From positions 186,001 to 250,000 of the forward strand of contig NZ_JAJLLW010000001.1 of NCBI RefSeq assembly GCF_020991005.1: a DNA stretch of 64,000 nt, written 5' to 3'. Position 1 is the first letter of the stretch. Each line of letters begins with the position of its first letter. Positions 7,420-38,021 of the stretch are shown piece by piece. The notes beneath the pieces are model-generated. The model saw only the letters and a list, made by a program, of their open reading frames with translations, searched no databases and was not told the DNA's origin. The DNA comes from Halomonas sp. CUBES01 (GTDB lineage Bacteria > Pseudomonadota > Gammaproteobacteria > Pseudomonadales > Halomonadaceae). Both the position numbers and the translations under genes were made by a program.

Positions 7420-7436
7420 TGTTCGAATAACGAACA
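7420..7436. promoter_or_regulatory. PcaR-type palindrome, site A (before the IclR gene)
   Basis: TGTTCG-AATAA-CGAACA is a perfect inverted repeat with 6-bp arms. It lies 49 bp before the chosen start of the IclR gene and 111 bp before aroQ. The same architecture occurs before pcaB and pcaI, and with mismatches before a TRAP operon and a porin. It matches the GTTCG-N5-CGnAC form I recall for P. putida PcaR. Autoregulation is inferred. Confidence 0.65.
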
Positions 7437-7547
7437 AATGAGCACGTTTGCACCTCCCGACGGATAACGTCGTATTAATAACACGTTATAATGGCTATAC
7501 GAGTTTATACATGATGACGACGTGGTGCTGAGAAAGGATATCAATCA

Positions 7548-7991
7548 ATGAGTCAGCCAAAAGTAACGGTACTTCATGGCCCCAACCTGAACCTTCTAGG
7601 GGTTCGCCAGCCCGATGTGTACGGGTATGAAACGCTGGACGATGTGAACAACGCCTTGCGCAACACCGCGATCATGACGGGCTGGGAAATCAACTGTTTT
7701 CAGAGCAACCATGAAGGCGAACTGATCGACGCGATTCATGCGGCGCGCCTCGATGGAACCCTGGCCATCATCATCAACCCGGCTGCCTATACCCATACGT
7801 CCGTTGCTATCCTGGATGCGCTCAATGCCTTTGAAGGCAAGGTGATCGAGGTGCACATTTCCAATGTCCATAAGCGTGAAAGCTTTCGGCATCATTCCTA
7901 TGTATCGCTGCGTGCCGATGGGGTCATTGCAGGCCTTGGCACCCAGGGCTATCAAGCGGCGCTGGACGCTATCCTGGCATCAACCGAGTAG
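7548..7991 (+). CDS. aroQ: Type II 3-dehydroquinate dehydratase
   Basis: This 147-residue protein is the usual length for the type II enzyme, which interconverts 3-dehydroquinate and 3-dehydroshikimate as a dodecamer. Visible motifs are HGPNLNLLG (10-18), the catalytic Tyr25 in [16 protein letters not shown], the [12 protein letters not shown] loop, and [17 protein letters not shown] with the catalytic histidine and arginine. ATG 7548 follows AGAAAGGATATCAATCA. A TATAAT hexamer lies at 7497-7502. Its place beside the shikimate dehydrogenase and QuiC genes suggests a catabolic role (QuiB function) in quinate use, though it could also serve aromatic biosynthesis. Confidence 0.93.
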
Positions 7992-8001
7992 CCGCCAGTC
8001 G

Positions 8002-8952
8002 CTACATGATCAGCCATCCCTTGAGCGTCATACCCGCGATCATCAGGCTGAGCGTAAAGAAGGAGGCCACCGTCGCCACCAGCATGGCGGTGGCGCTGAC
8101 ACCCGCCAGGCCGTAGCGTTGGCCGAACAGGGGATAAATGCTGATCATCGGCGCGGCGGCGAACAGTAGCGCGCCGGCAACGTAAACCGGCTCTATATCG
8201 GGAATCAGCAGAAACGCCACGAGAACCGCCAGGGGATGAAGGATCAGCTTGCCGATCACGATCTGGCCCACGTCGCGCGCCATGCCCTTGCCGCGCAGCC
8301 CGAACAGCGACCCGCCAATCACAAACAGTGCCGCAGGCCCTGCCGCGTCGGCAAGCATGTGGATCGCTTTATCAACAGGGCCTGGTATGACGAGCCCGGT
8401 CAGCGCAATCAGTATGCCCACCGAGAGGCCAATCAATACCGGGTTTCTGGCCAGGTTTTGTGCTGTCTGACGAACGGTTTGCCACAGGCTGGCGCCTTGC
8501 TGATTGCCCATTTCAGCAAGGATCAGTGCTGCCGGAATAATCAGCAGATTTTCAATCAGCATATTCAGTGCCAAGAGCACCGCGGCGGGGGAGCCGATGA
8601 CCATGGCGGCCACCGGGTAGCCAACGAAACCGCTATTGGCCGCGGCCATGCCCAGTGCCTGCATGGCGCTGACGTTGAGCGGTTGGCGCTGGAGCCGGTA
8701 GCAAAGCCACAACCCTGCGCTGAAAACGACGATGGAGCCCAGGCCGTAAGCGATCAGGTAGTCGAGTCTCAGTATCTCTTCCAGCGGCTGCTGGGTTAAC
8801 GCGCGAATCACGAGCGCCGGGAGCGCGCAGTAGAGTACAAATACGCCCACCCCTTGCAACTGCTCGCGCTGGATAATGCCGCTCCATCTCGCTGCGTAGC
8901 CTACGCCAATCAGCAGGAATATGGGGGTGGTGATTCCCAGAATCGCGAGCAT
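8002..8952 (-). CDS. AEC-family (auxin efflux carrier-like) transporter
   Basis: The protein is about 316 residues with roughly ten hydrophobic segments split by a polar middle, the layout of AEC permeases. MLAILGITTPIFLLIGVGYA opens the first helix, and ANSGFVGYPVAAMVIG and LFAAAPMISIYPLF match conserved half-helix regions. ATG 8952 is preferred because AAGGGG lies seven bases upstream; an ATG at 8970 is also possible. Bacterial AEC proteins include malate and other organic-anion carriers. The gene ends 10 bp from the convergent aroQ stop. A role in moving an intermediate of quinate breakdown is only a guess. Confidence 0.82.
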   Translation of the reverse strand: MLAILGITTPIFLLIGVGYAARWSGIIQREQLQGVGVFVLYCALPALVIRALTQQPLEEILRLDYLIAYGLGSIVVFSAGLWLCYRLQRQPLNVSAMQALGMAAANSGFVGYPVAAMVIGSPAAVLLALNMLIENLLIIPAALILAEMGNQQGASLWQTVRQTAQNLARNPVLIGLSVGILIALTGLVIPGPVDKAIHMLADAAGPAALFVIGGSLFGLRGKGMARDVGQIVIGKLILHPLAVLVAFLLIPDIEPVYVAGALLFAAAPMISIYPLFGQRYGLAGVSATAMLVATVASFFTLSLMIAGMTLKGWLIM

Positions 8953-9026
8953 GGCAGCCCCTTGACGCATGAAGGCAGAGGATTAGGTTCGAATGGCGAA
9001 TAAGTGTACGCTATTTCGCCGTCGCT

Positions 9027-9905
9027 TCATGGCATGGAGTGAATAGAAGGCGCGACCAGCTGCTCTATGTAATGGGTACGCAGCGGTATCACGTGCTGAT
9101 CGATCTGGTTGGCGGGGATACGCCCGGCAGTGAAGAAACGAAAGGCATCCACGCCCTGAAACACGAACAGATCAACGCCGGAAAGCGTTCTGGCGCCAGC
9201 CTGATAAGCGGCGTTTAACAGCTCGGTGTGGGCGGGGATGTACACCGCATCAAAGACCCAGTGCTGCACGCCCAGCCCGGCGGTATCGATGGGGCAGCCG
9301 GGGTGGTTGATATGGCCAATGGGCGAGCAGTTGACCACGCCCTGCCAATGGGGCAGTGCTTGCGGTACCTGCGCTGACGTGATGCACGTCGCGTGAATGC
9401 CCATGGCGTTGAGGTCACGGCTGAGGTTTTCTGCCCGGGCGCTGTCATGCTCAAGAATGTGGATACAGCTGACCGCGAGTTCACCCAGCGCGCAGGCCAC
9501 CGCACGACCTACCCCCCCGGCGCCGATCAGTAGCACATCGCCCGCTGGCCGATCGCCGAAAGAGTGGCGGTAGGCGCTGATGAAGCCGGTGTAGTCGGTG
9601 TTTTCAGCGCGCAGGCCGCCTTCATCGAAAAGTAGCGTATTGGCGGTGCCGACCCGGCGTACGCCCTCACCGCGAATATCGGCCAATTGCGCGGCTTTTT
9701 CCTTGAAGGGGAAGGTCACGTTGGTGCCCCGGTAGCCCTCAGCGCGCAAGGTGTGTATGGCATCGGGAAAGTCAAAACCCTCGACGCCCAGGCTATCGAC
9801 CAGGTCGTAGCGTACCGACTCGCCCAGTGACGCACCCAGGCGCTCATGCAAATCCGGGGATTGCGATTTGGCAATGCCCTCGCCTACCAGTCCGAGTTTG
9901 ATCAT
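9027..9905 (-). CDS. Shikimate (quinate/shikimate) 5-dehydrogenase, catabolic type
   Basis: The 292-residue protein has the AroE fold. SQSPDLHE (14-21) gives the substrate serines, NVTFPFKEKA holds the catalytic Lys68, ENTDYTGF holds Asp104, and GAGGVGRA (128-135) is the dinucleotide loop. The NADP-specific NRT motif of biosynthetic AroE is not seen after the loop; ILEHDSARAENLS stands there, with an acidic residue, which suggests NAD use. It overlaps quiC by four bases (ATGA) and ends the quiC-TRAP operon. It probably oxidises shikimate and perhaps quinate, replacing the PQQ quinate dehydrogenase that is absent here. Confidence 0.85.
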   Translation of the reverse strand: MIKLGLVGEGIAKSQSPDLHERLGASLGESVRYDLVDSLGVEGFDFPDAIHTLRAEGYRGTNVTFPFKEKAAQLADIRGEGVRRVGTANTLLFDEGGLRAENTDYTGFISAYRHSFGDRPAGDVLLIGAGGVGRAVACALGELAVSCIHILEHDSARAENLSRDLNAMGIHATCITSAQVPQALPHWQGVVNCSPIGHINHPGCPIDTAGLGVQHWVFDAVYIPAHTELLNAAYQAGARTLSGVDLFVFQGVDAFRFFTAGRIPANQIDQHVIPLRTHYIEQLVAPSIHSMP

Positions 9906-11788
9906 GCTTGGGTGTCTCCCGACGTGTGGTCTGGTGTTTCTGACGCCATGCCGTCAATTTCCGCTTCCAGGCGCTGCTGCGCGGTGACGCGCACAAAGGC
10001 ATTGGGTGCGCCCAGCCCTTGGTAGCCTTCACGCTGCACCAGTTCGAAGAAGAACGCCTGACGGCCGGGCTGGGTATACAGCTGATGAAAGTCGCCGTCG
10101 TTGTCCTGGTCAAAGAGGATATGATGATCCTTCATCCACTCAAGAGTTTGCGCCGGCAGGTCGAACCGTGCGGCCAGGTCACGGTAGTAGTTACCCGGAA
10201 TCGGCAGTACCGGCGTGCCTGCCTGCTGGAGCGCTGCGCTGGTATCGCGCATGGAGCTAGTGCGCAGGGCGACGTGATGGATCCCCGAGCCGCCGTACTG
10301 TCGGACGAAGCGGTTGCTGGCAGTATCCGGCGAGGCGCTGGCGTTAAGCGCCAGGCGAAAGCGGCCGTTATGGTTCTGCAGCACCTGGCTCTGGATCAGG
10401 CCGCGGGGGTCGGTGACATCGAAGGAGGGCGTTGGCGCCAGCTGGAAAATAGCGCGGTACTGCAGCATCAGCGAGAGGTAGTCGTGGTAGGAGAGCGCCA
10501 CGCTGATATGGTCGATATCCACCAGCGACCCCTGAGGAACCGGCTGTACATCGACAGGGAACTCGCGGTCCCAGGTGCGGCTAAGCTGCGAGTCGTCGAT
10601 GATATAGGAGAGGCTGCCATCCACATTGCGCAGCGCGCTCATGCGGTGGCTGGCACCCACCTCTTCAGGCTCGACAATAGCGTAGCCAAGCTTGTCTGCC
10701 CGCTTGAACGCCTCATAAGCGTTGCCCACGCGCAGGCCGATGGCGGTGATGGCGGTGGCATCGCGCCCGGGCGCGCGGCCGGTGAAGCTCGCGTCAGTGT
10801 TGAGCACCAGGTTGACGTCACCCGCCGCCCAGCGTTCGGCGTTAAGCGAGTGGTGACGGCCCACGCAGGCCATGCCCAGCGCGGTAAGCAGTTCGCGTAG
10901 CGAGGCTAGATCGTCAGGCTCGACGGCGATTTCCAGAAAAGCGACCGACTCGATCGGCTGCGGTGCGGGAATGCCGCTGTCGGCCTGCATGCTGCGCAGC
11001 AAATGATACGAGCGCAGCCCGTCCCGGGCCGTCTGGTCGCTGTGACCCATGCGGAACACATCGTTGAAGATCTCGTGTGAGAGCGGTCCGTCGTAACGGG
11101 TTTCCTGCAGCATGGTCATGAAGCTATCCATGTGCAGCTCACCCTGCCCAGGGAAGCAGCGATAGTGGCGGCTCCAGGACAGGTGATCCATGGAGAGACG
11201 TGGCGCATCGGCGGTCTGCACCAGGAAGATGCGATCCCCTGGAATACGGCCGACGGTGCCAAGCTCGGTCTGGCGGGAGAAGATATGGAAGGTATCCAGC
11301 ACCAGGCCGACATTGGGGTGCGCGGCGCGGCGCACCACTTCCCAGCTGTCGCGGTAGTCGTGAATGTGCCGGCCCCAGGCCAGTGCTTCATAAGCCACGC
11401 GCAGATTACGTTGTGCAGCACGCTCGCCCAGCGCATGGAAGTCGTCGGCGGCGCGGCTCAAGCCCGGTAGCGAATCGGGATGAACGGTACTGCATACCAT
11501 CAACAGGTCCGTGCCGAGTTCTTCCATCAGGTCAAACTTGTGCTCGGCGCGGTCAAACGCCCGTTCCCGCGCGCGCCCCCGGAGACCTTCAAAGTCGCGA
11601 AACGGCTGCAGGGTGACCAGCTTGAGCCCGCGGGCACGAATCAGCTCGCCCGCCTCTCGCGGCGTGCCGGGAAACGCTGTGAGGTCGTTTTCAAACAGCT
11701 CAAGCCCCTCGAAGCCGGCCTGGGCAATGGCGTCGACCTTCTCTTCCAGCGAGCCGCTCAGGCAAACCGTGGCGATGGATGAGTACAT
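9902..11788 (-). CDS. quiC: 3-dehydroshikimate dehydratase, fusion with a HPPD-like domain (QuiC1 type)
   Basis: The 628-residue enzyme converts 3-dehydroshikimate to protocatechuate. Residues about 1-285 form a sugar-phosphate-isomerase-like TIM barrel (MYSSIATVCLSGSLEEKVDA, EALAWGRHIHDY, LVLDTFHIFSR) that carries the activity in AsbF and QuiC. Residues about 290-628 form a two-module VOC region like 4-hydroxyphenylpyruvate dioxygenase (IDHISVALSYHDYLSL, GIHHVALRTSS, FFFELVQREGYQGLGAPN). This architecture and length match P. putida QuiC1, where the second half has no proven activity. It is translationally coupled to the shikimate dehydrogenase and lies 28 bp downstream of a TRAP permease gene. 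Confidence 0.92.
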   Translation of the reverse strand: MYSSIATVCLSGSLEEKVDAIAQAGFEGLELFENDLTAFPGTPREAGELIRARGLKLVTLQPFRDFEGLRGRARERAFDRAEHKFDLMEELGTDLLMVCSTVHPDSLPGLSRAADDFHALGERAAQRNLRVAYEALAWGRHIHDYRDSWEVVRRAAHPNVGLVLDTFHIFSRQTELGTVGRIPGDRIFLVQTADAPRLSMDHLSWSRHYRCFPGQGELHMDSFMTMLQETRYDGPLSHEIFNDVFRMGHSDQTARDGLRSYHLLRSMQADSGIPAPQPIESVAFLEIAVEPDDLASLRELLTALGMACVGRHHSLNAERWAAGDVNLVLNTDASFTGRAPGRDATAITAIGLRVGNAYEAFKRADKLGYAIVEPEEVGASHRMSALRNVDGSLSYIIDDSQLSRTWDREFPVDVQPVPQGSLVDIDHISVALSYHDYLSLMLQYRAIFQLAPTPSFDVTDPRGLIQSQVLQNHNGRFRLALNASASPDTASNRFVRQYGGSGIHHVALRTSSMRDTSAALQQAGTPVLPIPGNYYRDLAARFDLPAQTLEWMKDHHILFDQDNDGDFHQLYTQPGRQAFFFELVQREGYQGLGAPNAFVRVTAQQRLEAEIDGMASETPDHTSGDTQA

Positions 11789-11816
11789 GGCATCACGCTC
11801 CTTTGATTGATGAACA

Positions 11817-13082
11817 TCAGTAGCCCGCCAGGCGCGGCAGGAAGGTGACCAGCTCGGGCACGAAGGTAATCAGCAGCAGGATCAGGAACTGCACGGCCAG
11901 CATGGGCAGAATGCGCCGGATAATGGCCCCCATCCCCACACCGGAAACCGAGTCGGCCACAAACAGGCAGAGCCCCATGGGCGGTGTGATCAGCCCCATC
12001 ATCAGGTTGAAGATCACCACGATGCCGAAGTGCAGCGGGTCGATACCCAGCGCCATGGCGATGGGGTGCAGAATCGGCACCAGTACCAGAATGGCGGCGA
12101 TGCCTTCCAGAAACAGGCCCACCACCAGCAGCAGCAGAATGACGGCGATCAGGAAGGTCCACTGGGTATCGATGCTCATCAGCGCCCACTCGGTGAGCAT
12201 GTTGGGCACGCGTTCGAAGGTGAGCACCCAGTTGGCCGCCGCGACGGCGCCCATGATGACCATGATCACCGCGCTGTCACGCATGGCACGGGCGAAGATG
12301 CCGGGCAGATCCACCAGCTTGATATTGCGGTAGAGCACCACGCCCAGCATCAGCGCGTACACCACGGCAAAGGCCGCCGCCTCGGTGGGCGTGACGATAC
12401 CGGCGAGAATCGACCCGACCACAAACACCGGCATCAACGCGGGCAGCAGGCCGTGGAGAAGGGCGTGGCGGCGTGACGGCTGTTCTGAACGAGTGGCGCC
12501 CAGGTCGCCGGCGAAAAAGTAGACGTAGATGGAAAGGCCCAGCGCCAGCAATAGCCCGGGTACGATACCCGCCAAAAACAGCCCCGGTACCGAGACACCC
12601 GACACCGTAAGCGCATAGATGATGACCGGAATGCTCGGCGGAATAATCGGGCCGATCACCGACGAGGCCGCTGTGAGTGCAGCGGAGAAATCGCGGGGGT
12701 AGCCTTCTTTCTCCATCGCGGGGACGAAGACCCGCCCCAGCGCCGAGGTGTCGGCAATTGCTGACCCCGAGAGGCCGGCAAAAATCACCGACGCCCAGAT
12801 GTTGACGTGCGCCAGTCCCGCTTTCAGGCGGCCGACAATGGCAGTGGCCAGGTTGATAATGCGGTGTGTAATGCCCGCTTCGTTCATCAGCTCGCCGGCC
12901 AGAATGAACAGCGGTATCGCCAGCAGCGGGAAAGAGTCCATACCGCCGAAGAACTGCTGCGCGACGATACGGATGTGGTAAGGCAAGTCACCGGTACCCA
13001 TCAACACCGTCAACGTGCCGAGGATGGCAAAGGCAAACGGCACCCCAAGCAGGATGAGCGCCAAGAGCAATATAAATATCAC
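11817..13082 (-). CDS. TRAP transporter large permease (DctM type), quinate/shikimate cluster
   Basis: This 421-residue protein has about twelve membrane segments and typical DctM phrases: GLSGSAIADTSALGRVFVPAM, AASSVIGPIIPPSIPVIIYA, GIVTPTEAAAFAVVYAL and a C-terminal GLITPPMGLCLFVADSVSG. It forms the sodium-driven channel of a tripartite transporter. It overlaps the small-subunit gene by four bases and is followed by quiC and the shikimate dehydrogenase, so the solute is probably quinate, shikimate, dehydroshikimate or protocatechuate. The precise solute is inferred from context. Confidence 0.92.
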   Translation of the reverse strand: MIFILLLALILLGVPFAFAILGTLTVLMGTGDLPYHIRIVAQQFFGGMDSFPLLAIPLFILAGELMNEAGITHRIINLATAIVGRLKAGLAHVNIWASVIFAGLSGSAIADTSALGRVFVPAMEKEGYPRDFSAALTAASSVIGPIIPPSIPVIIYALTVSGVSVPGLFLAGIVPGLLLALGLSIYVYFFAGDLGATRSEQPSRRHALLHGLLPALMPVFVVGSILAGIVTPTEAAAFAVVYALMLGVVLYRNIKLVDLPGIFARAMRDSAVIMVIMGAVAAANWVLTFERVPNMLTEWALMSIDTQWTFLIAVILLLLVVGLFLEGIAAILVLVPILHPIAMALGIDPLHFGIVVIFNLMMGLITPPMGLCLFVADSVSGVGMGAIIRRILPMLAVQFLILLLITFVPELVTFLPRLAGY

Positions 13083-13576
13083 GATGCTGCCTCCTCATCG
13101 GCGTGCCTGGTCAAGCGGCGTGCGCCCATTACCAGGGCAGAGACGCTGAGCAGCCCGCCGCCAACCAACATGGAGGCTTGAAAGAGCCACATCGGCATCC
13201 CGGTGCTCGACGATGTACGCCCACCTCGGGAGGCGATGAACTCAACCGCCGACATCATCAGGCCGATGCCGATCACCAGTACCGCCAGGTCGACGGCGAC
13301 GGCCTGCCAGCGCACCCAGCGCGGCGGCAGCAGGCGGCGAATCAGGTCAAAGCCGATGTGCCTGTCCTGCAGGTAGGCCCAGGACATGCCAAACATCAGG
13401 CCATAGATCATCAGGTAGATGGCGGTGTCTTCTCCCCAGGTGATGGAAGCACCGACGGTATAGCGCGCAAAGGCATTGCCTGCGACCAGTAGAAAAATCA
13501 GGATCATGGCAAGCCCGGCCAGGCTGCCATTGAACAGGATCAGGCCACGATGTAGCCGGGCAAGAAGATGAGACAT
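13079..13576 (-). CDS. TRAP transporter small permease (DctQ type)
   Basis: The 165-residue protein has four membrane helices. The pattern is LAGLAMILIFLLVAGNAFARYTVGASITWGE..., with the conserved W-x-E after helix 2, followed by DRHIGFDLIRRLLPP, which is standard for DctQ. It pairs with the large permease whose gene it overlaps (ATGA). An 88-bp spacer containing a strong hairpin separates it from the upstream binding-protein gene. Confidence 0.9.
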   Translation of the reverse strand: MSHLLARLHRGLILFNGSLAGLAMILIFLLVAGNAFARYTVGASITWGEDTAIYLMIYGLMFGMSWAYLQDRHIGFDLIRRLLPPRWVRWQAVAVDLAVLVIGIGLMMSAVEFIASRGGRTSSSTGMPMWLFQASMLVGGGLLSVSALVMGARRLTRHADEEAAS

Positions 13577-13613
13577 GAAAGCACCTTCGATCGTTAGTCA
13601 GGTACGCAGGGTC

Positions 13614-13641
13614 GCGGGTGAGCCCTGAAGGGCCCACCCGC
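13614..13641. other. Intercistronic stem-loop between dctP and dctQ
   Basis: GCGGGTG-A-GCCCT-GA-AGGGC-C-CACCCGC folds into a 12-bp stem with one internal mismatch and a tiny loop, right after the binding-protein stop (transcription runs right to left). No U-run follows. Hairpins at this place commonly protect the abundant binding-protein message or cause partial termination; that role is inferred. Confidence 0.55.
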
Positions 13642-13664
13642 AAAGCGCTTTGGTCAAGCGGGGG

Positions 13665-14705
13665 TTAGAAGCGTGCGGCTGCATCTTCCACGGCGGAAGA
13701 AAGACGTTCGATCCACTCGGCATCATCGCCCAGCTCATCGCGCAGATATGCCTGAACCGGTGGCTGAGCCGCTTCGCGGAAGGCCTCCATCTGCTCGGCA
13801 GTGGGCTGGGTGATTTCCATGCCCTCGGCTTCCAGCTTGGCGATACCCTCTGCCGAGTTGAACTGCTGAATGGCACGGCCGGTAGTGCCGGCGACCACAG
13901 CGGCGCGCTTCACGGCGGCCTGTTCTTCTGCGCTAAGCGACTGGAAGATCTCATCGTTGATCAGGATGTGATCCACACCGTAGACGTGGCGATCCAGCGT
14001 GAGGTAATCCTGAAACTCGTAGAAATTGTTGCCGTAAATCACCGAGATAGGATTCTCCTGGCCGTCGACCACGCCGGTGGCAAGCGCCGTCGGCACCTCA
14101 CCCCAGGCGATACCCTGCGGTTCAGCGCCCAGTCCCTCTACCATTTCCTGATAGAGCGGAATGGTTTGCACGCGGAATTTCAGGCCTTCCATGTCTTCCG
14201 GTGAGTGGATCGGACGCACGGAGTTGGTGAAGTGGCGAAAGCCCGTCTCGCCGTAGGCCAGCGTACGCAGGCCGGTCTCTTCCAGGCAGTGCTCGGCCAG
14301 GGCGGTGCCGAATTCGCCGTCCATCACTTCCCAGGCCACCGGCGCAGACGGGAAGGTATAAGGAATATCGGTAACGGCGACGGCTTCGCAGAAATTGGCG
14401 TAGGCGCCGGAAACCATTGAGATGGTGATGGTGCCATCCTGAGTACCTTCGATCAGCTCGGTCTCACCGCCCAGCGAGCCTGCGGGGTAAAGCTCCACGG
14501 TAAGGTCGGTTTCGGCTTCCACCAGGTTCTTGAATACCTGCCCGGCGGCGCCTTTTTTCGAGGTCGTCCAGTCATCCGGGTCCACGTGGGCAAAGCGCAG
14601 CGTCTGCGCGGAGGCATGCGCCGCGCCGATAAGCGTGGCAGTGGCGATGGCAGCGGTCAGCGTGCGTTTAAGGGACACGTTGGCGGTAGCGAGTGGTAAA
14701 GACAT
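13665..14705 (-). CDS. TRAP transporter periplasmic solute-binding protein (DctP type), quinate/shikimate cluster
   Basis: The 346-residue protein has an N-terminal signal (LKRTLTAAIATATLIGAAHASAQ, cleavage near residue 33) and a DctP fold: TLRFAHVDPDDWTTSKKG, FKNLVEAETDLTVELYPAGSLGG, and MEGLKFRVQTIPLYQEMVEGLGAEPQGIAWGEVPTAL, where the arginine normally binds the ligand carboxylate. It is the first gene of the operon dctP-dctQ-dctM-quiC-shikimate dehydrogenase and is divergent from a TetR regulator. GAGGACAACAACA precedes the ATG. The solute is inferred to be a cyclic acid of the quinate/shikimate or protocatechuate family. Confidence 0.92.
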   Translation of the reverse strand: MSLPLATANVSLKRTLTAAIATATLIGAAHASAQTLRFAHVDPDDWTTSKKGAAGQVFKNLVEAETDLTVELYPAGSLGGETELIEGTQDGTITISMVSGAYANFCEAVAVTDIPYTFPSAPVAWEVMDGEFGTALAEHCLEETGLRTLAYGETGFRHFTNSVRPIHSPEDMEGLKFRVQTIPLYQEMVEGLGAEPQGIAWGEVPTALATGVVDGQENPISVIYGNNFYEFQDYLTLDRHVYGVDHILINDEIFQSLSAEEQAAVKRAAVVAGTTGRAIQQFNSAEGIAKLEAEGMEITQPTAEQMEAFREAAQPPVQAYLRDELGDDAEWIERLSSAVEDAAARF

Positions 14706-15730: not shown

Positions 15731-17068
15731 ATGCCGGCCGGATTTTTAAAGCACCCCTTCATGAGCCAGCGCGCCGTCGCTGAATGTGACGACGACGCCA
15801 TGGTTCGCGCCATGCTGACCGTTGAGTTGGCCCTGGCCGAGGTTCAGGAAGCCAGTGGCGCCATCCCGCATGGCGTGAGCCAGCAAATGCGAGAACAGCT
15901 TGCGCGTGCCGACCTTGATGCCTCAGAGATTGCCCAAGGCATCGCCAGCGGCGGCAACGCGGCGATTCCCTTCGTCAAGCAGGGCCGTGCGCTGCTCACC
16001 GATGATCTCAAGCGCTACTGGCATCAGGGGGCGACCAGCCAGGACGTAGTCGACTCCGCGCTGATGCTGCTGCTCAAGCCACGCCTGGCAGCACTCGATG
16101 AGTTGCTCTTGCGCTGTCGTTCGGCCGCGCTGGCGCTGATGGAGGTGCACATCGACACGCCCATGGTGGGGCGCACCCTGATGCAGCAGGCGCTGCCGAT
16201 GACCTTCGGGGTGAAGGTGGCTCACTGGGCTATCGGTCTGGAGCAGGCGCGCCGCCGTTTATTCGCCGTCGAGCTTCCCGTGCAGTTGGGTGGGGCGGTC
16301 GGCGTTCACTCGGGGTGGGATACCCTCGGGCTTGAGTGGATGGACGCCTTGGCCGGGCGGCTAGGCCTGGCGGTGCCGGTGCTGCCCTGGCATACCGATC
16401 GCTACCCGATTCATGCCCTTGGCACGGCGCTGGATGCCGTCGCCGGGGCCGCCGAGAAAATCGCCCTGGATGTGTCGCTGCTCACCCAGACCGAAGTCGG
16501 CGAAGTCGCGGAACCTACCGCGCCGGGAATGGGGGAGTCATCCTCGATGCCCCACAAGCGCAACCCGGTACGCAGCGCGCTGATTCGCGGCGCGGCGCGG
16601 CAGGTGCATGGCCATACCAGCGTGCTGCTAAACGCCGCCGCCCAGCCCCTTGAGCGGGGACTAGGCGAATGGCATGCGGAGTGGGCGCCGCTTACCGAGA
16701 GCGCGCTGCTGGTCGAAGGCGCACTGGAGCAAGTGGCGGTGTTGCTTGAAGGGTTGGAGGTGAACCCTGCCAACATGCACCGCAACCTCGCGGCAGCCGG
16801 CGGCGGCATCATGGCCGAGCCGGTGGCGCGGCTGCTGGCTCCCACGCTGGGCGTGGAGCAAGCCAAAGCGATCAGCGCGGAAGCAGCTGAAACTTCACGC
16901 CGGGAAGCACGCCCCTATTCAGAGGTACTGGCCGAGCATCCTGATGTGAAAGGGGCCGTTAATCCCGATGCGCTGCGTGAAGCCTGCGACCCCGCTTTAT
17001 ACCTTGGTAGCAGCGCCGCCCAGGTCATGCGCACCAGGAAATGGCTCGCGTCCTCGTCAGCGCATTGA
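15731..17068 (+). CDS. pcaB: 3-carboxy-cis,cis-muconate cycloisomerase
   Basis: The 445-residue protein belongs to the fumarase/aspartase superfamily and lactonises 3-carboxymuconate to 4-carboxymuconolactone in the cytosol. The superfamily signature GMGESSSMPHKRNP sits near residue 265. GATSQDVVDSALML and the N-terminal FLKHPFMSQRAVAE, with HPF and a mostly acidic follow-on, fit PcaB rather than adenylosuccinate lyase. ATG 15731 has AGGAGG ten bases upstream; a TTG at 15722 is too close to it. The gene is separated from the pcaI operon by 178 bp and has its own PcaR-type site. Confidence 0.93.
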   Translation: MPAGFLKHPFMSQRAVAECDDDAMVRAMLTVELALAEVQEASGAIPHGVSQQMREQLARADLDASEIAQGIASGGNAAIPFVKQGRALLTDDLKRYWHQGATSQDVVDSALMLLLKPRLAALDELLLRCRSAALALMEVHIDTPMVGRTLMQQALPMTFGVKVAHWAIGLEQARRRLFAVELPVQLGGAVGVHSGWDTLGLEWMDALAGRLGLAVPVLPWHTDRYPIHALGTALDAVAGAAEKIALDVSLLTQTEVGEVAEPTAPGMGESSSMPHKRNPVRSALIRGAARQVHGHTSVLLNAAAQPLERGLGEWHAEWAPLTESALLVEGALEQVAVLLEGLEVNPANMHRNLAAAGGGIMAEPVARLLAPTLGVEQAKAISAEAAETSRREARPYSEVLAEHPDVKGAVNPDALREACDPALYLGSSAAQVMRTRKWLASSSAH

Positions 17069-17187
17069 AAAACAAAGCGTTAAGTTCGGCTGTGGACGGG
17101 ACGATGGATCCGGGCGCGCGGTTGGTGGGTGCCGCCGGGTTTGACCCAATGAGCATTCGGCAGTAACTTGTTCGTATGAAGAATCTA

Positions 17188-17204
17188 TGTTCGCCTAACG
17201 AACA
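17188..17204. promoter_or_regulatory. PcaR-type palindrome, site C (before pcaI)
   Basis: TGTTCG-CCTAA-CGAACA is a perfect 6-bp-armed repeat 42 bp before pcaI. An extra half-site TGTTCG occurs at 17169-17174, 19 bp upstream in the same orientation, giving three half-sites as described for PcaU and PobR operators in Acinetobacter. This is the strongest copy in the window. Confidence 0.7.
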
Positions 17205-17246: not shown

Positions 17247-18068
17247 ATGGCCGAGTTTCTCAGCCTGCATGACGCGGTAGCGCGCTTCGTCGAAGACGGC
17301 GCCACCGTGGCCATGGAAGGCTTTACCCATCTGATTCCGTTTGCGGCGGGCCACGAAGTCATCCGCCAGGAAAAGCGTGACCTGACGCTGATCCGCATGA
17401 CCCCCGATATCATCTACGATCAGTTGATTGGCGCAGGCTGCGCCAAAAAGGTGATCTTCTCCTGGGGCGGCAACCCCGGCGTGGGCTCGCTGCACCGCCT
17501 GCGCGATGCGGTCGAGAAAGGCTGGCCGCATAAGGTCGAGATTCTGGAGCATAGCCACGCCGCCATGGCCTGCGCCTTTGAGGCAGGCGCGGCGGGGTTG
17601 CCGCTGGCGGTTTTTCGCGGCTACATCGGCAGCGAGCTGCCCAGCGTCAACGACCAGATCAAGTTCATCGAGTGCCCGTTTACCGGGGAGCGCCTGGCCG
17701 CCGTGCCGTCGGTGCGCCCGGATGTGTCGATCATCCACGCCCAGCGGGCGGATCGGCAGGGCAATGTGCTGGTGGAAGGCATTGTCGGCGTCCAGAAGGA
17801 GGCGGTACTGGCGGCCACGCACAGCATCGTCACGGTGGAGGAGATCGTCGATGACCTTGATGCACACCCCAATGCCTGCGTGATTCCTGGCTGGGCCATC
17901 AGCGCTATTGCTGTCGCCGAGAAAGGCGCGCTGCCCTCCTACACCCACGGCTATTACGGCCGCAGCAACCGCTTCTATAAAGAGTGGGATGCCATCGCTC
18001 GCGATCGTGACACCTTCACCCGTTGGCTCGACGACAACGTTTACAGTGTAGGGGAGAACAGCAAATGA
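17247..18068 (+). CDS. pcaI: 3-oxoadipate CoA-transferase subunit A (CatI/glutaconate-CoA-transferase type)
   Basis: With PcaJ this 273-residue protein moves CoA from succinyl-CoA to 3-oxoadipate. It contains EGFTHLIPFAAGHEVIRQ, RMTPDIIYDQLIGAGCAKK and FSWGGNPGVGSLHRLRDAVEKGWP, almost the wording I recall for CatI of Pseudomonas knackmussii. It is longer than the classical P. putida PcaI of about 230 residues, so this pair belongs to the glutaconate-transferase-like type. It heads the operon pcaI-pcaJ-pcaF-pcaL-pcaH-pcaG and overlaps pcaJ by four bases. Confidence 0.92.
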   Translation: MAEFLSLHDAVARFVEDGATVAMEGFTHLIPFAAGHEVIRQEKRDLTLIRMTPDIIYDQLIGAGCAKKVIFSWGGNPGVGSLHRLRDAVEKGWPHKVEILEHSHAAMACAFEAGAAGLPLAVFRGYIGSELPSVNDQIKFIECPFTGERLAAVPSVRPDVSIIHAQRADRQGNVLVEGIVGVQKEAVLAATHSIVTVEEIVDDLDAHPNACVIPGWAISAIAVAEKGALPSYTHGYYGRSNRFYKEWDAIARDRDTFTRWLDDNVYSVGENSK

Positions 18069-18838
18069 GTCTCGAATATACCGCTTCTGAAATGATGTCG
18101 GTGACCGCCGCACGGGCGCTGGAAAACGGCATGACCTGCTTTGTGGGCATCGGTCTGCCCTCGGAAGCCGCCAACCTGGCACGGCTGACCCATGCCCCCG
18201 ATGTGGTGCTGATCTACGAATCCGGCACGCTGCAGACCAAGCCCGATATTCTGCCGTTATCTATTGGCGATGGCGAGCTGTGCGAATCGGCGCTGACCAC
18301 CGTGGCGGTACCGGAGATGTTCCGCTACTGGCTACAGGGCGGCAAAGTCGACGTGGGCTTTCTGGGCACCGCGCAGATCGACCGCTTTGCAAACCTCAAC
18401 ACGACGTTGATCGGCGATTACAAAGCGCCCAAGGTACGCCTGCCGGGCGGTGGCGGCGCGCCGGAAATCGCCACCAACGCCGGTGAAGTCTTTATCACCC
18501 TGAAGCACTCCAAGCGCGCCTTTGTGAAAGATGTCGACTTTGTCACCACCCTAGGCTTTGGCCGCGACGGCAAGGGGCGCGACAACGTGCCCAATATCGG
18601 TAAAGGCCCCACCCGCGTCATCACCGACCTGTGCGTGATGAAACCCGACCCGGCCACCAACGAGCTGCTCGTGGTGTCACTGCACCCAGGCGTCAGCCGT
18701 GAAGACGTGATTGACGCCACCGGCTGGGAAGTGCGCTTTGCCGAACAGCTCGCAAGCACGCCAGAACCCAGCGACAACGAGCTTGAGATCTTGCGTGAGC
18801 TCAAAGCACGCACCGAGCGGGCCCACGGGGGCGAATAA
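18065..18838 (+). CDS. pcaJ: 3-oxoadipate CoA-transferase subunit B (CatJ type)
   Basis: The 257-residue partner of PcaI starts at ATG 18065 inside the pcaI stop (ATGA). It reads [20 protein letters not shown], then [29 protein letters not shown] and [11 protein letters not shown], and carries the glycine-rich [12 protein letters not shown]. The glutamate of IYESG is the likely catalytic residue that forms the CoA thioester in this family. A longer reading from 18023 would overlap pcaI further and lacks a ribosome-binding site. pcaF follows after 10 bp. Confidence 0.92.
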
Positions 18839-18848
18839 GGAGCTTGTC

Positions 18849-20066
18849 ATGAGCAATGTCGAAATGAACGACGTCTATCTCTGTCACCCGCGTCGTACGG
18901 CTGTCGGTCGCTTTGGCGGTACGCTTGCCAGCGTGCGCCCGGATGATTTTGCCGCGACGATTTTCAAAGCCGTGCTGGCGGAAGCGCCGACTCTCGATCC
19001 CGCAGCGATCGAAGAAGTCTTCATGGGCTGCGCCAACCAGGCCGGTGAAGATAACCGCAACGTGGCGCGGATGTCGTCGCTGCTGGCGGGCATTCCTGCC
19101 TCGGTGCCTGGCACGACCCTGAACCGCCTGTGCGGCTCGGGGATGGACGCGGTGGGTACCGCGTTTCGCGCCATTAAAGCCGGTGAGATGGGGCTGGCGC
19201 TGGCAGGTGGCGTGGAGTCCATGTCCCGCGCGCCCTACGTCATGGGCAAGGCCGATAGCGCCTTTGCCCGAGGACAGAAGATTGAAGACACCACCATCGG
19301 CTGGCGCTTCATCAACCCGCTGATGAAGAACGCCTTCGGCGTCGAGTCCATGCCGGAGACCGCCGAGAACGTCGCCGAGCAGTTCGACATTTCCCGGGAA
19401 GACCAGGACGCCTTTGCGCTGCGCTCCCAGCAGAAAGCCGCCGCGGCACAACAGGGCGGACGTTTCGCGCAGGAAATTACTGCCATCGAGATCCCCCGCC
19501 GCAAGCAGGAACCGCTGATCTTCGATCAGGACGAGCATCTGCGGGAAACCACGTTCGAGAAACTCGCTGGCCTGCCCACGCCCTTCCGCGATGGAGGCAG
19601 TGTCACGGCGGGTAACGCCTCGGGCGTCAACGACGGCGCCGCCGCCATGCTGGTGGCCAGCGGCGCGGCGGTCAAACAGCACGGCCTTGCCCCGATGGCC
19701 AGAATCATCGGCATGGCCACGGCAGGCGTCGAGCCGCGCATCATGGGCTACGGGCCGGTTCCGGCCGTCAACCGACTGCTGGAACGCACCGGTGTACGCC
19801 TCGATGACATCGATATTATCGAACTCAACGAAGCCTTTGCCGCCCAGGCACTGGCGTGTATGCGCGACCTGGGGCTGGCCGACGATGATCCTCGCGTCAA
19901 CCCGAACGGCGGCGCGATTGCCTTGGGGCACCCGCTGGGCATGTCCGGAGCCCGCCTATTGCTGACCGCCGCCCATGAGCTGCAAAACAGCGGCAAGCGC
20001 TATGCGCTGTGCACCATGTGCGTAGGTGTGGGTCAGGGTATCGCGACGTTGATTGAACGCGTTTAA
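18849..20066 (+). CDS. pcaF: 3-oxoadipyl-CoA thiolase
   Basis: The 405-residue thiolase cleaves 3-oxoadipyl-CoA to succinyl-CoA and acetyl-CoA, the last step of the pathway. Catalytic residues are in [12 protein letters not shown] (acyl cysteine), [12 protein letters not shown], the histidine of [12 protein letters not shown], and the second cysteine in [13 protein letters not shown] 18849 has AAGGAG eight bases upstream; the longer open frame from 18711 would lie within pcaJ. The product length equals P. putida PcaF within a few residues. Its place between pcaJ and pcaL supports PcaF over a general acetyltransferase. Confidence 0.94.
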
Positions 20067-20077
20067 CGGAGACCGTC

Positions 20078-21274: not shown

Positions 21275-21307
21275 GCGAGACATGTTAACGAACGAGAGGT
21301 AAGGGTG

Positions 21308-22030: not shown

Positions 22031-22046
22031 GGCCAGGGGGATCATC

Positions 22047-26760: not shown

Positions 26761-26858
26761 AGCGAAGAGTCATTTAGTTTCAATATGTAATTAAACCAAA
26801 GTATAAAATATTTAAAATTCCATTTAATCAATAGTTTGTATTATCTCAATCAGATAAG

Positions 26859-26893
26859 ACCTCCGCCTTAATTGACAGGTGGAGGTTTTTTTT
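26859..26893 (+). terminator. Terminator downstream of vanR
   Basis: ACCTCCGCC and GGTGGAGGT form a 9-bp stem with one mismatch, followed by a run of T. It lies 98 bp after vanR within an AT-rich spacer and isolates vanR from the porin gene. Confidence 0.75.
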
Positions 26894-26920
26894 GCAGCTT
26901 TAGTACGTAATGCGGATCAG

Positions 26921-26937
26921 CGTTCGCATTGAGAACA
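26921..26937. promoter_or_regulatory. Imperfect PcaR-type palindrome, site E (before the porin)
   Basis: CGTTCG-CATTG-AGAACA matches GTTCG-N5-CGAAC at nine of ten arm positions. It lies 39 bp before the porin start, close to the distance seen at sites C (42 bp) and D (34-35 bp). A TACAAT hexamer follows at 26940-26945. Being imperfect, it needs comparison with related genomes. Confidence 0.45.
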
Positions 26938-26975
26938 AATACAATTAGACTCGACACTAAAAGCAGAGATCAACA

Positions 26976-28169
26976 ATGAAAATGAACCGTTTTGTTGCAT
27001 GCGCCCTTCTGACACCCTGTGCTTTTGCTGCTCAGGCCCATGCCTTTGACGTAGTGGAAGCAGGGCAACCCGTGGTAACCGGTGAGCCAAGCCGCGTAGG
27101 CCCGCCCTGGAACCATCGGTCGACGATCAATATTCCCGGCACGCAAACAGATATCGCCTTCGGCGGGTACGTCAAGCTTGATGCCTTTTACGACTTCGAT
27201 TACGACCTGGGCACATCGACCAACCCTTACGCGGTCATGAACCCGGGCAACAAGACCGATGGTCGCACCAGCTTTACGGCCTATGAGTCACGCCTGAATT
27301 TTCGTACGCAGACCCAAACCGACTATGGGCGTCTATCGACTTACTTCGAGGGGCACTTTGTCCCCGACGGCAAATTTGGCCTGCGCCATGCCTACGGGGA
27401 GCTCAATGGCTTTCTAGCCGGGCAGACATGGTCAAACTTCATGAGCTTCGTGGGCGGTACGCATACGCTGGCGTTAGGCGACCCCAAGGGCTACGCCTTC
27501 GAGCGGCAGGCGCAGTTACGCTATACGCAGCCGGTGGGCGACGGTACGTTTTCGGCTGCCCTGGAAAATCCCACCACCGTCATTGCTCGCAATGACGCCG
27601 ACGTTGCCGATGGCGAGAGCCAACTGCCCGACTTGACGCTGCGCTATGAATACAAGCGCCTGTTTGCCCTGTCGGGGATCGCGCGTCAACTGTCGACCAA
27701 TAACATCACCAACACCATCGATGACGACGCCACTGGCTATGGGGTTCAGGCGCAGTTCAATATGCCCTTCAGCTCGACGACCAGCTTGCGGGGCAGCGCT
27801 ACCTTCGGCGAGGGCATCGGTAACTATATGGGGAATCCCGGTAATGTGGGTCACCGTAATGCCCCGGACGTGTATGTGGAGGGTACTGACATCGAAACGA
27901 TCGAAACCCAGGCGTTTGGTCTGTCGCTCAATCATTACTGGACGGACAGCTGGTTCAGTTCCGCCGGCGTTTCGCGCCTGGAGCAGGATCTGCCGTCTGG
28001 CTATGGCGATCATTTCGAAACCCTTGACTACGCGTTTGCCAACGTCATTTGGGACGTCACCGAACGCATGGCGGTCGGTCTCGAATACCAGCATGCCGAT
28101 ATCGAGCAGGTGAACGGTGATGCCAATGATGCAAGCCGACTGCAGGCAAGTGCCACCTTCCAGTTCTAG
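26976..28169 (+). CDS. DcaP-like trimeric outer-membrane porin
   Basis: The 397-residue protein has a signal peptide (MNRFVACALLTPCAFAAQAHA) and a beta-rich body with alternating residues ending in the outer-membrane signal SATFQF (terminal Phe). FGGYVKLDAFYDFDYDLGTS, FTAYESRLNFRTQT and GQTWSNFMSFVG match the DcaP porin family, whose members pass dicarboxylates and aromatic acids such as phthalates. It is placed between vanR and the ferulate genes and has a PcaR-like site. I infer that it admits aromatic acids to the periplasm, where TRAP binding proteins collect them. Confidence 0.82.
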   Translation: MKMNRFVACALLTPCAFAAQAHAFDVVEAGQPVVTGEPSRVGPPWNHRSTINIPGTQTDIAFGGYVKLDAFYDFDYDLGTSTNPYAVMNPGNKTDGRTSFTAYESRLNFRTQTQTDYGRLSTYFEGHFVPDGKFGLRHAYGELNGFLAGQTWSNFMSFVGGTHTLALGDPKGYAFERQAQLRYTQPVGDGTFSAALENPTTVIARNDADVADGESQLPDLTLRYEYKRLFALSGIARQLSTNNITNTIDDDATGYGVQAQFNMPFSSTTSLRGSATFGEGIGNYMGNPGNVGHRNAPDVYVEGTDIETIETQAFGLSLNHYWTDSWFSSAGVSRLEQDLPSGYGDHFETLDYAFANVIWDVTERMAVGLEYQHADIEQVNGDANDASRLQASATFQF

Positions 28170-32113: not shown

Positions 32114-32171
32114 TGCTTTAGTCGTATTTTTAATAACGCCGCTTGCATGCTGTCTAAAAGAAAATTACTTA

Positions 32172-34233: not shown

Positions 34234-34314
34234 GCCAGAGGTAAGACATGAACCACGTCGCGATCCAGCCAAGATTAACGCCCACTTGATGGCGAGGAGA
34301 TAGCTAATCGAGAC

Positions 34315-34348
34315 GTTCAGCGCTGAACAAATTGTTAAACGATCGTTT
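34315..34348. promoter_or_regulatory. Two perfect palindromes before ech
   Basis: GTTCAGCGCTGAAC (34315-34328) and AAACGATCGTTT (34337-34348) lie 9 bp apart in the 162-bp gap between dctM and ech. They look unlike the MarR-type and PcaR-type sites. They could be operators of an internal promoter for ech-vdh. No regulator can be assigned. Confidence 0.4.
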
Positions 34349-34395
34349 TTGATAAGTAACGTTGTAAGTCGTTCGATAAACCCGAGGAGCAAGAG

Positions 34396-35226: not shown

Positions 35227-35270
35227 ACCCGGACAACAACAACCGACAATGATGTAAACGAGAGGTTGCC

Positions 35271-36719: not shown

Positions 36720-36776
36720 CTAAGTGCAGGACACCATGTCCTGCAAGCAAGCGACGTCAATAAGGAGTCCATTACA

Positions 36777-37823
36777 ATGACAATAAAACCCACACTCGCC
36801 AGCCTCGCGTTGATCAGCGGCATGCTCATCAGCGCGGGTGGCCACGCCCAAGACACCGTGACCCTGCGTCTGCACCACTTTGCCGCCCCTTCCACCCCCG
36901 TGCAGACCGAGTATCTGGAACCCTGGGCACAGCGAATCGAAGCGCAGTCCGACGGGGCCATCAACGTCGAAATATTCCCTGCCATGCAGCTGGGCGGGTC
37001 GGCCCCCTCCCTTTACGACCAGGCCAAGGACGGGGTCGTCGACATTGCCTGGACCTTGTTGAGCTATACGCCGAATCGCTTTCCCGAGTCGGAGGCATTC
37101 GACCAGCCCTTCCTGCCCACCACCGGGGAAGCCACCAGCATGGCGGCCCATGAGTTTGCGACAACGCATATGCAAGATGACTTCGAGGGTGTCTACCCGA
37201 TCGCCGTCTTTGCCCATACGCCGGGCAAACTGCATACCAGGGACGTATCTATCGAAAGTGCTGATGATCTCGATGGCCTGGCCCTTCGTGCCCCTTCGAA
37301 GACCATGAATCGCTATCTGGGGCTGCTGGGCGCGCAAGCGGTGGGCATGCCAATGCCGCAAATTCCGGAAGCCATCTCCCGGGGAGTGATCGACGGCTTG
37401 GCGCTGCCGTTTGAAAGTGCGGCGGCGCTGGGCGTGCTGGACGTTGCCCAGAACCACACCTTTTTCGAGGGCGAACATGGGCTATATACGGCCATGATGG
37501 TGCTGGCCATGAACCAGGCTAGCTATGATGCGCTTTCGCCGGCGCTGCAGCAGGTGATTGACGACAATGCCGGACTTGCGGAAGCACAGCGCATCGGTCA
37601 GGTCATGGATCAAGCAGAAGAGAAGGCGATTGACGCCATTGAAGCAAGCGGTGAGGGGAACATGGTCTACATCACCGAGGATTCGCTGCAACCCTGGCAG
37701 GCGGCTGCTGAAACGGCCACAGCCCAGTGGATTGACGACATGGAGAGCCGTGGCTTCGATGGCCAACGGCTTTATGATGAGGCGACGCGACTGGTAGAGA
37801 CGTATACCGAGCAGACACAGTAG
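36777..37823 (+). CDS. TRAP solute-binding protein (DctP type), ferulate operon
   Basis: The 348-residue protein has a signal peptide (LASLALISGMLISAGGHAQ) and a DctP fold (VTLRLHHFAAPSTPVQTEYLEPWAQ, MQLGGSAPSLYDQAKDGVVDIAWTLLSY, and LDGLALRAPSKTMNRYLGLLGAQAVGMPMPQIPEAI with the ligand-binding arginine). It differs clearly from the two paralogous binding proteins at 22781 and 38056 and lacks their cysteine pair. It ends the operon dctQ-dctM-ech-vdh-dctP, so its permease is probably the pair at 32315-34233. A strong terminator follows. Confidence 0.9.
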   Translation: MTIKPTLASLALISGMLISAGGHAQDTVTLRLHHFAAPSTPVQTEYLEPWAQRIEAQSDGAINVEIFPAMQLGGSAPSLYDQAKDGVVDIAWTLLSYTPNRFPESEAFDQPFLPTTGEATSMAAHEFATTHMQDDFEGVYPIAVFAHTPGKLHTRDVSIESADDLDGLALRAPSKTMNRYLGLLGAQAVGMPMPQIPEAISRGVIDGLALPFESAAALGVLDVAQNHTFFEGEHGLYTAMMVLAMNQASYDALSPALQQVIDDNAGLAEAQRIGQVMDQAEEKAIDAIEASGEGNMVYITEDSLQPWQAAAETATAQWIDDMESRGFDGQRLYDEATRLVETYTEQTQ

Positions 37824-37847
37824 CCTTTATTGTCATCTGGCATCGTC

Positions 37848-37877
37848 AACCGCCTTCGCGCCTGCGAAGGCGGTTTT
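37848..37877 (+). terminator. Terminator of the ech-vdh-dctP operon
   Basis: AACCGCCTTCGC-GCCT-GCGAAGGCGGTT is a perfect 12-bp stem followed by TT and C, 25 bp after the dctP stop. Confidence 0.9.
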
Positions 37878-38004
37878 CTGCTATGGGAGGCGCCTGGGCC
37901 GATCCGGTGCGCAGGCGTTGTTAAGGCGCTCGACGGACTATAGACCAATGTCGATTAGCCCCGCGCTCCATAGTGGACTAACGTAGTGTTATATGGCGAA
38001 CTAA

Positions 38005-38021
38005 TATTCGCTATGCGAACT
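38005..38021. promoter_or_regulatory. PcaR-type palindrome, site D (before TRAP operon 38056-40897)
   Basis: TATTCG-CTATG-CGAACT matches GTTCG-N5-CGAAC except for the first arm base. A further CGAAC half-site occurs at 37997-38001, 19 bp before the right arm, the same 19-bp step as the extra half-site at site C. The element ends about 35 bp before the dctP start. It links this transporter to the pca regulon by inference. Confidence 0.5.

Follow-up and report, generated by a model that had tools for sequence, protein, structure and literature searches.

In Pseudomonas putida the regulator PcaR also serves the permease gene pcaK, and in Acinetobacter baylyi the pca-qui operon, which includes a porin-like gene, is driven by PcaU. 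Here we analysed a 64,000-bp stretch of the genome of Halomonas sp. CUBES01 (assembly GCF_020991005.1, contig NZ_JAJLLW010000001.1, positions 186,001-250,000; 1.8% of the 3.6 Mb genome), referred to below as the window, which encodes a PcaR-type regulator of the IclR family together with pca genes and several uptake systems. We report that six copies of the palindrome GTTCG-N5-CGAAC (15-bp core) in this window are very probably operators of the PcaR-type regulator encoded at 6577-7371, whose regulon would thus extend to a tripartite ATP-independent periplasmic (TRAP) importer, a DcaP-like porin and an AEC permease.

P. putida PcaR is reported to regulate most pca genes (PMC2907835). In Table 1 of PMC8222616 (Suvorova and Gelfand 2021) its operator appears as WWWRKTCGATWATCGSAYRRW and that of PcaU as TTTGTTCGATWATCGMACAMA. 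The same source gives GKTYCRYW3-4RYGRAMC as the consensus of IclR group 1, predicts a three-box form for 32 IclR-family groups, reports tandem sites, their centres 18-22 nt apart, for 94 orthologous groups of the family, and counts DctPQM and aromatic-transport clusters of orthologous groups among IclR-regulated genes. In our reading, the locus described here is a known kind of regulon with a known operator type, and the extension to uptake genes is the added part.

Six predicted PcaR operators in the window

A first-pass annotation of the window had reported five copies of the palindrome. A pattern search of the window located all five where they had been placed, three of them exact and two with one mismatch, and all outside the surrounding annotated genes; the spacing to the next start was likewise as claimed, with four sites at 35-49 bp and the pcaB site at 86 bp. 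Its extra half-sites at a 19-bp step were also recovered, as a degenerate palindrome at 17170-17184 and a CGAAC at 37997-38001. Three features had escaped the annotation: a sixth copy of the palindrome, which precedes the gene of an AEC-type permease (8987-9001); a second degenerate palindrome, at 26903-26917, which is 19 bp away from the site before the porin; and a gene at 7548 for a type II dehydroquinase, which diverges from pcaR across a common site. The predicted operators are listed with their scores on the matrix described below.

7421-7435: predicted PcaR operator, exact, between pcaR (49 bp to its start) and the divergent dehydroquinase gene; 22.7 bits
8987-9001: predicted PcaR operator, one mismatch, 16 bp before the AEC gene; 16.2 bits
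15630-15644: predicted PcaR operator, exact, 86 bp before the pcaB ATG at 15731; 16.7 bits
17170-17203: predicted tandem PcaR operators before pcaI at 19-bp pitch, degenerate palindrome 17170-17184 and exact palindrome 17189-17203, the latter 43 bp before the pcaI start; 28.8 bits
26903-26936: predicted PcaR operator before the porin gene, core 26922-26936 with one mismatch, 39 bp before the porin start, and degenerate palindrome 26903-26917 at 19-bp pitch; 15.3 bits
37997-38020: predicted PcaR operator before the TRAP operon, third box CGAAC 37997-38001, N4, palindrome 38006-38020 with one mismatch, 35 bp before the ATG at 38056; 19.6 bits

The regulator and the pca genes that these sites accompany are as follows.

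6577-7371, minus strand: pcaR, IclR-family regulator of 264 amino acids from the ATG at 7371 (TIGR02431)
15731-17068, plus strand: pcaB-like gene, 3-carboxy-cis,cis-muconate cycloisomerase (PRK09053 367 bits, TIGR02426 323.4 bits, both under cut-off)
17247-22691, plus strand: pca operon, comprising CoA-transferase subunits, pcaF, a pcaDC fusion, pcaH and pcaG

Scanned as the longer open reading frame (ORF) 6577-7437, the pcaR product scored 300.5 bits against TIGR02431 (PcaR/PcaU/PobR; cut-off 284.75), which places the regulator, by its sequence, in this family. Among solved chains, its top score was to 2ia2, a putative regulator, and the next to 8eju, 'Transcription regulatory protein (Pca regulon)', at 216 bits, which we take to be PcaU. 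Its recognition helix R51-A-K-A-R55-R56 aligns with R-A-A-V-R-R of 8eju, and in our own reading of the alignment R51, R55 and R56 would correspond to Arg56, Arg60 and Arg61, the DNA-contact residues of the PobR recognition helix (PMC8222616). Only two IclR_C proteins were found in the genome at E ≤0.001, namely the pcaR product and one encoded outside the window (C10:325331). The pcaR-type regulator is encoded alongside protocatechuate-branch genes, with pcaF, pcaH and pcaG above their family cut-offs, the pcaB-like gene under, the pcaDC fusion just under, and the CoA-transferase subunits weakly of the PcaI/PcaJ type; an operator of the GTYCG-N5-CGNAC type is present at pcaR itself and at the pca genes.

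A matrix built from pcaR and pcaI loci recovers the remaining sites

The window holds three exact palindromes where 0.06 are expected, and none of 100 shuffles reached three; genome-wide there are four exact copies, three of them in the window (P = 2e-5, although the pattern had been picked with the sites already known). The remaining copy falls within an ORF, scores 5.4 bits on the matrix, and was rejected as a regulon member. Because the bare pattern is common at one mismatch or fewer and unenriched at two or fewer (counts are given below), the mismatched sites cannot rest on it alone; what supports them is the matrix and the relatives.

The matrix was built from 49 distinct 21-mers of the pcaR and pcaI loci only (own loci included), and the pcaB, AEC, porin and TRAP sites of the window lay outside the training set. 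Scanning the window gave exactly six matches of at least 8 bits, which were the six sites, at 15.3-28.8 bits, and the four sites outside the training set were recovered at 15-20 bits. In local shuffles, 64 kb contained 0.8 matches at 8 bits and, at 14 bits or more, 0.2. Furthermore, when the genome was searched with a 30-position model that includes the third box described below (57 training rows), there were eight matches at E ≤10 among the 150 of 379 candidates scored, all of which fell on the six sites, and the TRAP site was the best match in the genome (22.4 bits). As far as these models see, the sites are exclusive in this genome.

The sites are conserved upstream of orthologues in related genomes

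Of 121 genomes of the family, 69 contained a pcaR orthologue (E ≤1e-40) and 52 did not. For each gene we took the 30 best loci, own included, and counted a site if it had at most one mismatch and lay within 350 bp upstream of the match; at pcaR the search also ran up to 80 bp into the match because the query began before the ATG. In these loci, which are the best-scoring ones, come from related genomes and are not independent, a site was present upstream of pcaR in 29 of 30 (an exact copy in 28), of pcaI in 30 of 30, and of the TRAP substrate-binding protein (SBP) gene in 27 of 30. At the porin it was present in 14 of the 30 loci tried, corresponding to 14 of the 15 orthologues with at least 68% identity. 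The reversed-pattern control gave 3/30 at TRAP and 0/30 at each of the other three genes. TRAP loci from named records, a set that overlaps the 30 loci, carried the site in 25 of 27 cases (control 0), and the AEC site was found in 4 of 17 AEC homologues in 40 regions of relatives, these being the four with at least 74% identity.

The 40 regions (761 kb) contained 107 matches of at least 14 bits, of which none fell in the 378 kb of coding sequence and 91 fell in the 44 kb upstream of annotated genes, and at 12 bits or more a single match out of 112 lay inside annotated coding sequence, 'coding' here comprising homologues of window proteins only. Exact palindromes were more numerous in the 69 genomes with pcaR (3.68 per genome) than in the 52 without (2.08), the control giving 5.61 and 5.46, with a p-value of 4.7e-6 that is only a guide because the genomes are related. 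The TRAP SBP was present in 47 of the 69 genomes with pcaR, a figure that may include paralogues, and in 0 of the 52 without at equal threshold (Fisher test), a distribution which shows that it is inherited together with the pathway and not just with the regulator.

Gene order in the relatives also links these units. In 11 of the 40 regions one palindrome is common to divergent pcaR and pcaB and lies within 150 bp of both, where in the window each has its own copy. In four regions (L163, L164, L168 and L169) TRAP genes directly follow pcaDC on the same strand, with an operator before the SBP gene in L168 and L169 and none in L163 and L164, and in 12 of the 40 an AEC gene directly follows pcaR on the pcaR strand. 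Altogether, the proposal of the first-pass annotation that the IclR gene, the pca units, the TRAP operon and the porin form one putative regulon is supported by the genome scan, by the absence of matches of at least 14 bits from annotated coding sequence of relatives, by conservation upstream of the orthologues of pcaR, pcaI, TRAP and the close porins, and by the TIGR02431 family of the regulator.

Operator architecture and predicted mode of control

A third box, CGAAC (at least 4 of 5 positions), stands exactly N4 outside the palindrome in 71 of 113 matches (40 regions plus the window, tandem-pair members included), and 17 other spacings gave 0-5 each. In the window the box matches at 5/5 positions for TRAP, 4/5 for AEC, 3/5 for pcaB, pcaI and the porin, and at most 2/5 for pcaR. 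By sequence, the resulting CGAAC-N4-GTTCG-N5-CGAAC operator is the form known for PcaU, and the 19-bp pitch at pcaI and the porin fits the tandem sites of 18-22 nt (PMC8222616). Information content was concentrated in the site arms (1.73-1.98 bits per position), with flanks at 0.14-0.45 bits at pcaR and TRAP. The upstream flank was also conserved at pcaI (0.98 bits) and the porin (1.11 bits); in both cases the first palindrome lies in this flank, as does the putative promoter at pcaI. At TRAP, the arms carried 1.73 and the third box 1.59 bits per position, whereas the flanks had 0.29 and 0.22, the values for the arms being somewhat inflated by their placement at the best score.

17141-17169, plus strand: putative sigma-70 promoter of the pca operon, TTGACC-N17-TAACTT, read by eye

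The pcaI consensus (22 non-redundant loci) shows TTTGACg and TAttTT, and the tandem operators come directly after the putative -10 element at pcaI. In the pcaR consensus (25 non-redundant loci) an extended -10-like TGcTAgAtT could be read after the palindrome. The position of the operators over the putative pcaI start region suggests that unliganded PcaR would block pcaI. In P. stutzeri a pcaR mutant shows no growth on 4-hydroxybenzoate (PMC2907835), a phenotype which suggests that PcaR may act as an activator there.

We infer that PcaR physically binds these sites, either in the three-box form or as a pair of palindromes at a pitch of 19 bp; this pitch, close to two turns of the helix, would suit two dimers side by side. 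PcaR would then control its own gene, pcaB and the pcaIJF-DC-HG operon together with the TRAP importer, the DcaP-like porin and the AEC-type permease. A pathway intermediate, 3-oxoadipate or protocatechuate, would bind PcaR as the inducer, and ring-cleavage enzymes and entry routes would be switched together, the presumed TRAP substrates being aromatic acids.

Uptake units under predicted PcaR control

The three uptake units preceded by predicted operators, and a hairpin upstream of one of them, are listed here.

38056-40897, plus strand: TRAP operon encoding a DctP-type SBP, DctQ and DctM (PF03480, PF04290 and PF06808 above cut-off)
26976-28169, plus strand: DcaP-like porin (PF02530 49.3 bits; PF19577 42.1 bits against a cut-off of 27; both over cut-offs)
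26856-26897, plus strand: terminator-like hairpin with a U-run between a GntR gene and the porin gene (-20 kcal/mol, z -4.87)
8002-8970, minus strand: AEC / Mem_trans family permease (PF03547 above cut-off; TIGR00946 under cut-off)

The genes for the SBP and the small and large membrane subunits of the TRAP operon are adjacent on one strand; the SBP ORF opens at 38041 and its likely start is 38056. The SBP is 99% identical to its counterpart in Halomonas sp. A40-4 and 93% identical to that of Vreelandella arcis. Its closest solved chains are TRAP DctP proteins, with 7nr2 as the best; a ligand was not assignable from these matches, which are DctP proteins of unstated ligand, and a literature search on six structure codes gave nothing relevant. 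The porin matches 6eus, 'DcaP-like protein', at E 2e-8, and is probably its own transcription unit because of the strong hairpin that separates it from the GntR gene.

For other targets in relatives, eleven matches were examined (one of which, in L164, was a pcaI site) and eight adjoining proteins were scanned. PcaR-type sites were found before TctC-type binding proteins (L146:10087, L165:1468 and L178:5630), where the other side of the sites holds a QuiC-like gene, at 411 and 313 bp, and pcaR, at 216 bp, and before a Peripla_BP_6 protein gene (L156). Further sites were seen beside genes for an FAD-binding protein (L146) and a Beta-lactamase-family protein (L160, 15.5 bits). In L150 (position 12031) a PcaR-type site stands 29 bp before the gene of a beta-keto acid cleavage enzyme (PF05853), possibly an alternative route for 3-oxoadipate. 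In L148:4417 and L151:19780 a site with the third box stands 93 bp before a gene for a XylR/DmpR-type sigma-54 regulator (the L151 ORF read by eye), an arrangement that suggests a regulator cascade.

Other genes of the window

Judged from its predicted genes, the window is a plant-aromatics island with pca genes, quinate-type genes, pobA, several TRAP units and a DcaP-like porin. In addition to the genes above, it contains the following.

7548-7991, plus strand: type II 3-dehydroquinate dehydratase, divergent from pcaR (PF01220; TIGR01088 above cut-off)
9027-14705, minus strand: shikimate/quinate dehydrogenase-like gene, QuiC-like gene and TRAP-1 (DctM, DctQ, DctP)
43852-44778, minus strand: AraC-type gene near pobA (AraC domains)
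44900-46084, plus strand: pobA, 4-hydroxybenzoate 3-monooxygenase (TIGR02360 706 bits, above cut-off)

A p-hydroxycinnamoyl-CoA hydratase/lyase is also encoded in the window (490 bits, above cut-off). The head of the 9027-14705 unit is without an operator, the matrix scan having given no other match of at least 8 bits in the window, and the same scan gave no PcaR site at the pobA/AraC-type locus. The gene at 5137-6630, which adjoins pcaR, encodes the 2-oxoadipate dioxygenase/decarboxylase HglS (730 bits, above cut-off), and there is no matrix match before it.

A second conserved element at the TRAP promoter

Upstream of the TRAP operator, a second element is conserved, which is newly found here and is the freshest lead of this analysis.

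37943-37956, plus strand: second conserved element, GACCAATGTCGATT; the TRAP palindrome lies 63 bp downstream

Its consensus, GACNAANGTCGNTT, matches the window exactly at this position and occurs with at most one mismatch in 52 of 57 TRAP loci (30 + 27 loci, overlapping sets), and the reversed control had at least three mismatches in all 57. The distance to the start of the palindrome is 61-65 bp, most often 63 (30 loci), or about six helical turns. At the same threshold the consensus was found in 0 of 75 sequences upstream of pcaR, porin and pcaI orthologues. In the window, copies with at most two mismatches numbered 19 against 11.1 expected (1 of 100 shuffles reached 19), and the exact form occurs only once. 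As a common motif the element was rejected: a model of it, which in effect contains the window's own copy, gave one other weak genomic match (E 5.0; 150 of 1104 candidates scored). This match (G000:C10:652442, L223) shows two GAC/AAC-N-AA-N-GTC-like repeats and lies upstream of an ORF that was judged by eye to be UDP-glucose dehydrogenase-like.

The core of the element resembles, by eye, the ACTU motif of CrbR/ErdR, for which Table 4 of PMC5715377 lists the predicted site TACGACTAAAGTCTAAA in Pseudomonas fluorescens. The core GACTAAAGTC of this listed site is present in 2 of 25 TRAP-upstream elements, and against TACCATCGTCGAAT, a stretch of the acs site listed there, the window element agrees at 10 of 14 bases in a by-eye comparison. 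ACTU is, however, reported at acetate-utilisation genes (PMC5715377), whereas the present element stands at a TRAP operon and has a conserved GNTT.

For the TRAP operon, the second element offers a tangible pointer to a further input that has gone unrecognised. We put forward tentatively, at somewhat less than an even chance, that the PcaR operator of Halomonadaceae is a mobile uptake module, placed before unrelated carriers from one genome to another (TRAP, porin and AEC; in relatives TctC-type and Peripla_BP_6) and tying a genome's entry route to protocatechuate catabolism, and that the TRAP promoter is a two-signal gate on which PcaR and an ACTU-like second regulator would sit on the same helix face, about six turns (63 bp) apart. 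If so, TRAP import would respond both to the aromatic intermediate and to another cue, for example carbon status.

Alternative explanations

Several observations weigh against the six palindromes being operators of one PcaR regulon that reaches the uptake genes. The porin site is the weakest (15.3 bits on the matrix; 9.3 bits and E 6.3 with the 30-position model), and at up to one mismatch it is missing at the close orthologue L089 and at all 15 more distant porins. At the same threshold, three of the 30 TRAP loci (L061, L068 and L075, the last from a genome with TRAP genes after pcaDC) have no site, and at the pcaR locus L036 the counted site lies 216-235 bp from the match start, the nearer one having two mismatches. 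The AEC site is missing in 13 of 17 homologues, all more distant, 12 of which directly follow pcaR on the pcaR strand. Three window sites sit among the training rows of the 30-position model, and in 194 order-level genomes (stricter filters, E ≤0.003) that model matched in four, all of the same family and one being the window's own genome, which supports no conclusion on the order. The centre of the present sites differs from the ATWAT in the published consensus for PcaR/PcaU, and the non-independence of the loci and the narrow meaning of 'coding' belong here as well. So do the counts of the bare pattern: it has 87 genome copies at up to one mismatch, the 83 one-mismatch copies predicting about 1.5 in the window, where three were found, and at up to two mismatches the window shows no enrichment (25 found, 32.8 expected), so that the two-mismatch pattern was rejected as evidence. 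These counts favour the notion that the palindromes arose by chance or simply reflect base composition, which we nevertheless regard as scarcely credible given the excess of exact copies (3 against 0.06), conservation that exceeds the reversed-pattern controls, and the 0 of 107 matches in annotated coding sequence.

The motif is of the general IclR group-1 type (PMC8222616) and so does not by itself name the binding protein; with a second IclR_C protein in the genome, the sites could be bound by that protein (C10:325331) or by another factor, pcaR merely carrying a copy. This is very unlikely, as the second protein reaches 162.7 bits against TIGR02431, under the cut-off, and its gene, which is not in the window, lacks a site in the surrounding 3.7 kb (best match -2.5 bits), whereas pcaR carries a site in 29 of 30 loci and exact palindromes are more numerous in genomes that encode it. 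It is also unlikely, in our view, that only the pca sites are true PcaR operators and that those at TRAP, the porin and AEC have no cellular role, these genes answering to other factors such as the regulator of the 37943-37956 element. The porin and AEC sites are indeed mismatched and lower-scoring, the AEC site occurs only in close homologues, and the TRAP promoter holds another strongly conserved element; yet the TRAP arms and third box stand far above their flanks in information content, even allowing for the somewhat inflated arms (1.73 and 1.59 against 0.29 and 0.22 bits), and relatives place TRAP genes directly after pcaDC (L163, L164, L168 and L169) and an AEC gene after pcaR (12 of 40 regions). 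We therefore favour a PcaR regulon that includes the uptake genes.

Such a regulon would mean that uptake and breakdown of plant-derived aromatic acids probably run together in Halomonas-type bacteria and their relatives. In relatives the operator precedes carriers from several families that are not related to each other, which suggests that it is the regulator that is kept and not the type of carrier. It provides a small candidate regulon for aromatic-acid catabolism in halophiles, with a likely importer and porin named. Halomonas strains are being studied for the production of bioplastic from lignin-derived aromatics (PMC13253662).

Comparison with known systems

The first-pass annotation had likened the arms of the palindrome to those of P. 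putida PcaR and had not known such control of uptake to be described. The arms do agree with Table 1 of PMC8222616, and the likeness ends at the centre, which is not ATWAT. The novelty holds at most for the present combination, since transport genes, DctPQM included, are found in IclR-family regulogs generally (PMC8222616); because IclR-family control of transport has already been reported, the surprise is moderate. The main text of PMC8222616 contains no word beginning with 'Halomona' or 'TRAP', and overlap may sit in its supplements; the literature covered, mostly open-access main text, yielded no account of a PcaR regulon in Halomonas that includes a TRAP operon or porin.

With PcaU of A. 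baylyi, the present system shares the three-box operator, whose external half-site is needed for PcaU binding (PMC8222616), and it differs in that tandem palindromes at pcaI and targets such as TRAP and the porin are not in the account of PcaU in that source. With P. putida PcaR, it shares the TIGR02431 family and arms of the form RKTCG-N5-CGSAY (PMC8222616). It differs from P. putida PcaR in having CGAAC as the second arm and a centre that is not fixed to ATWAT, and in predicted targets that take in the TRAP importer, the DcaP-like porin and the AEC permease.

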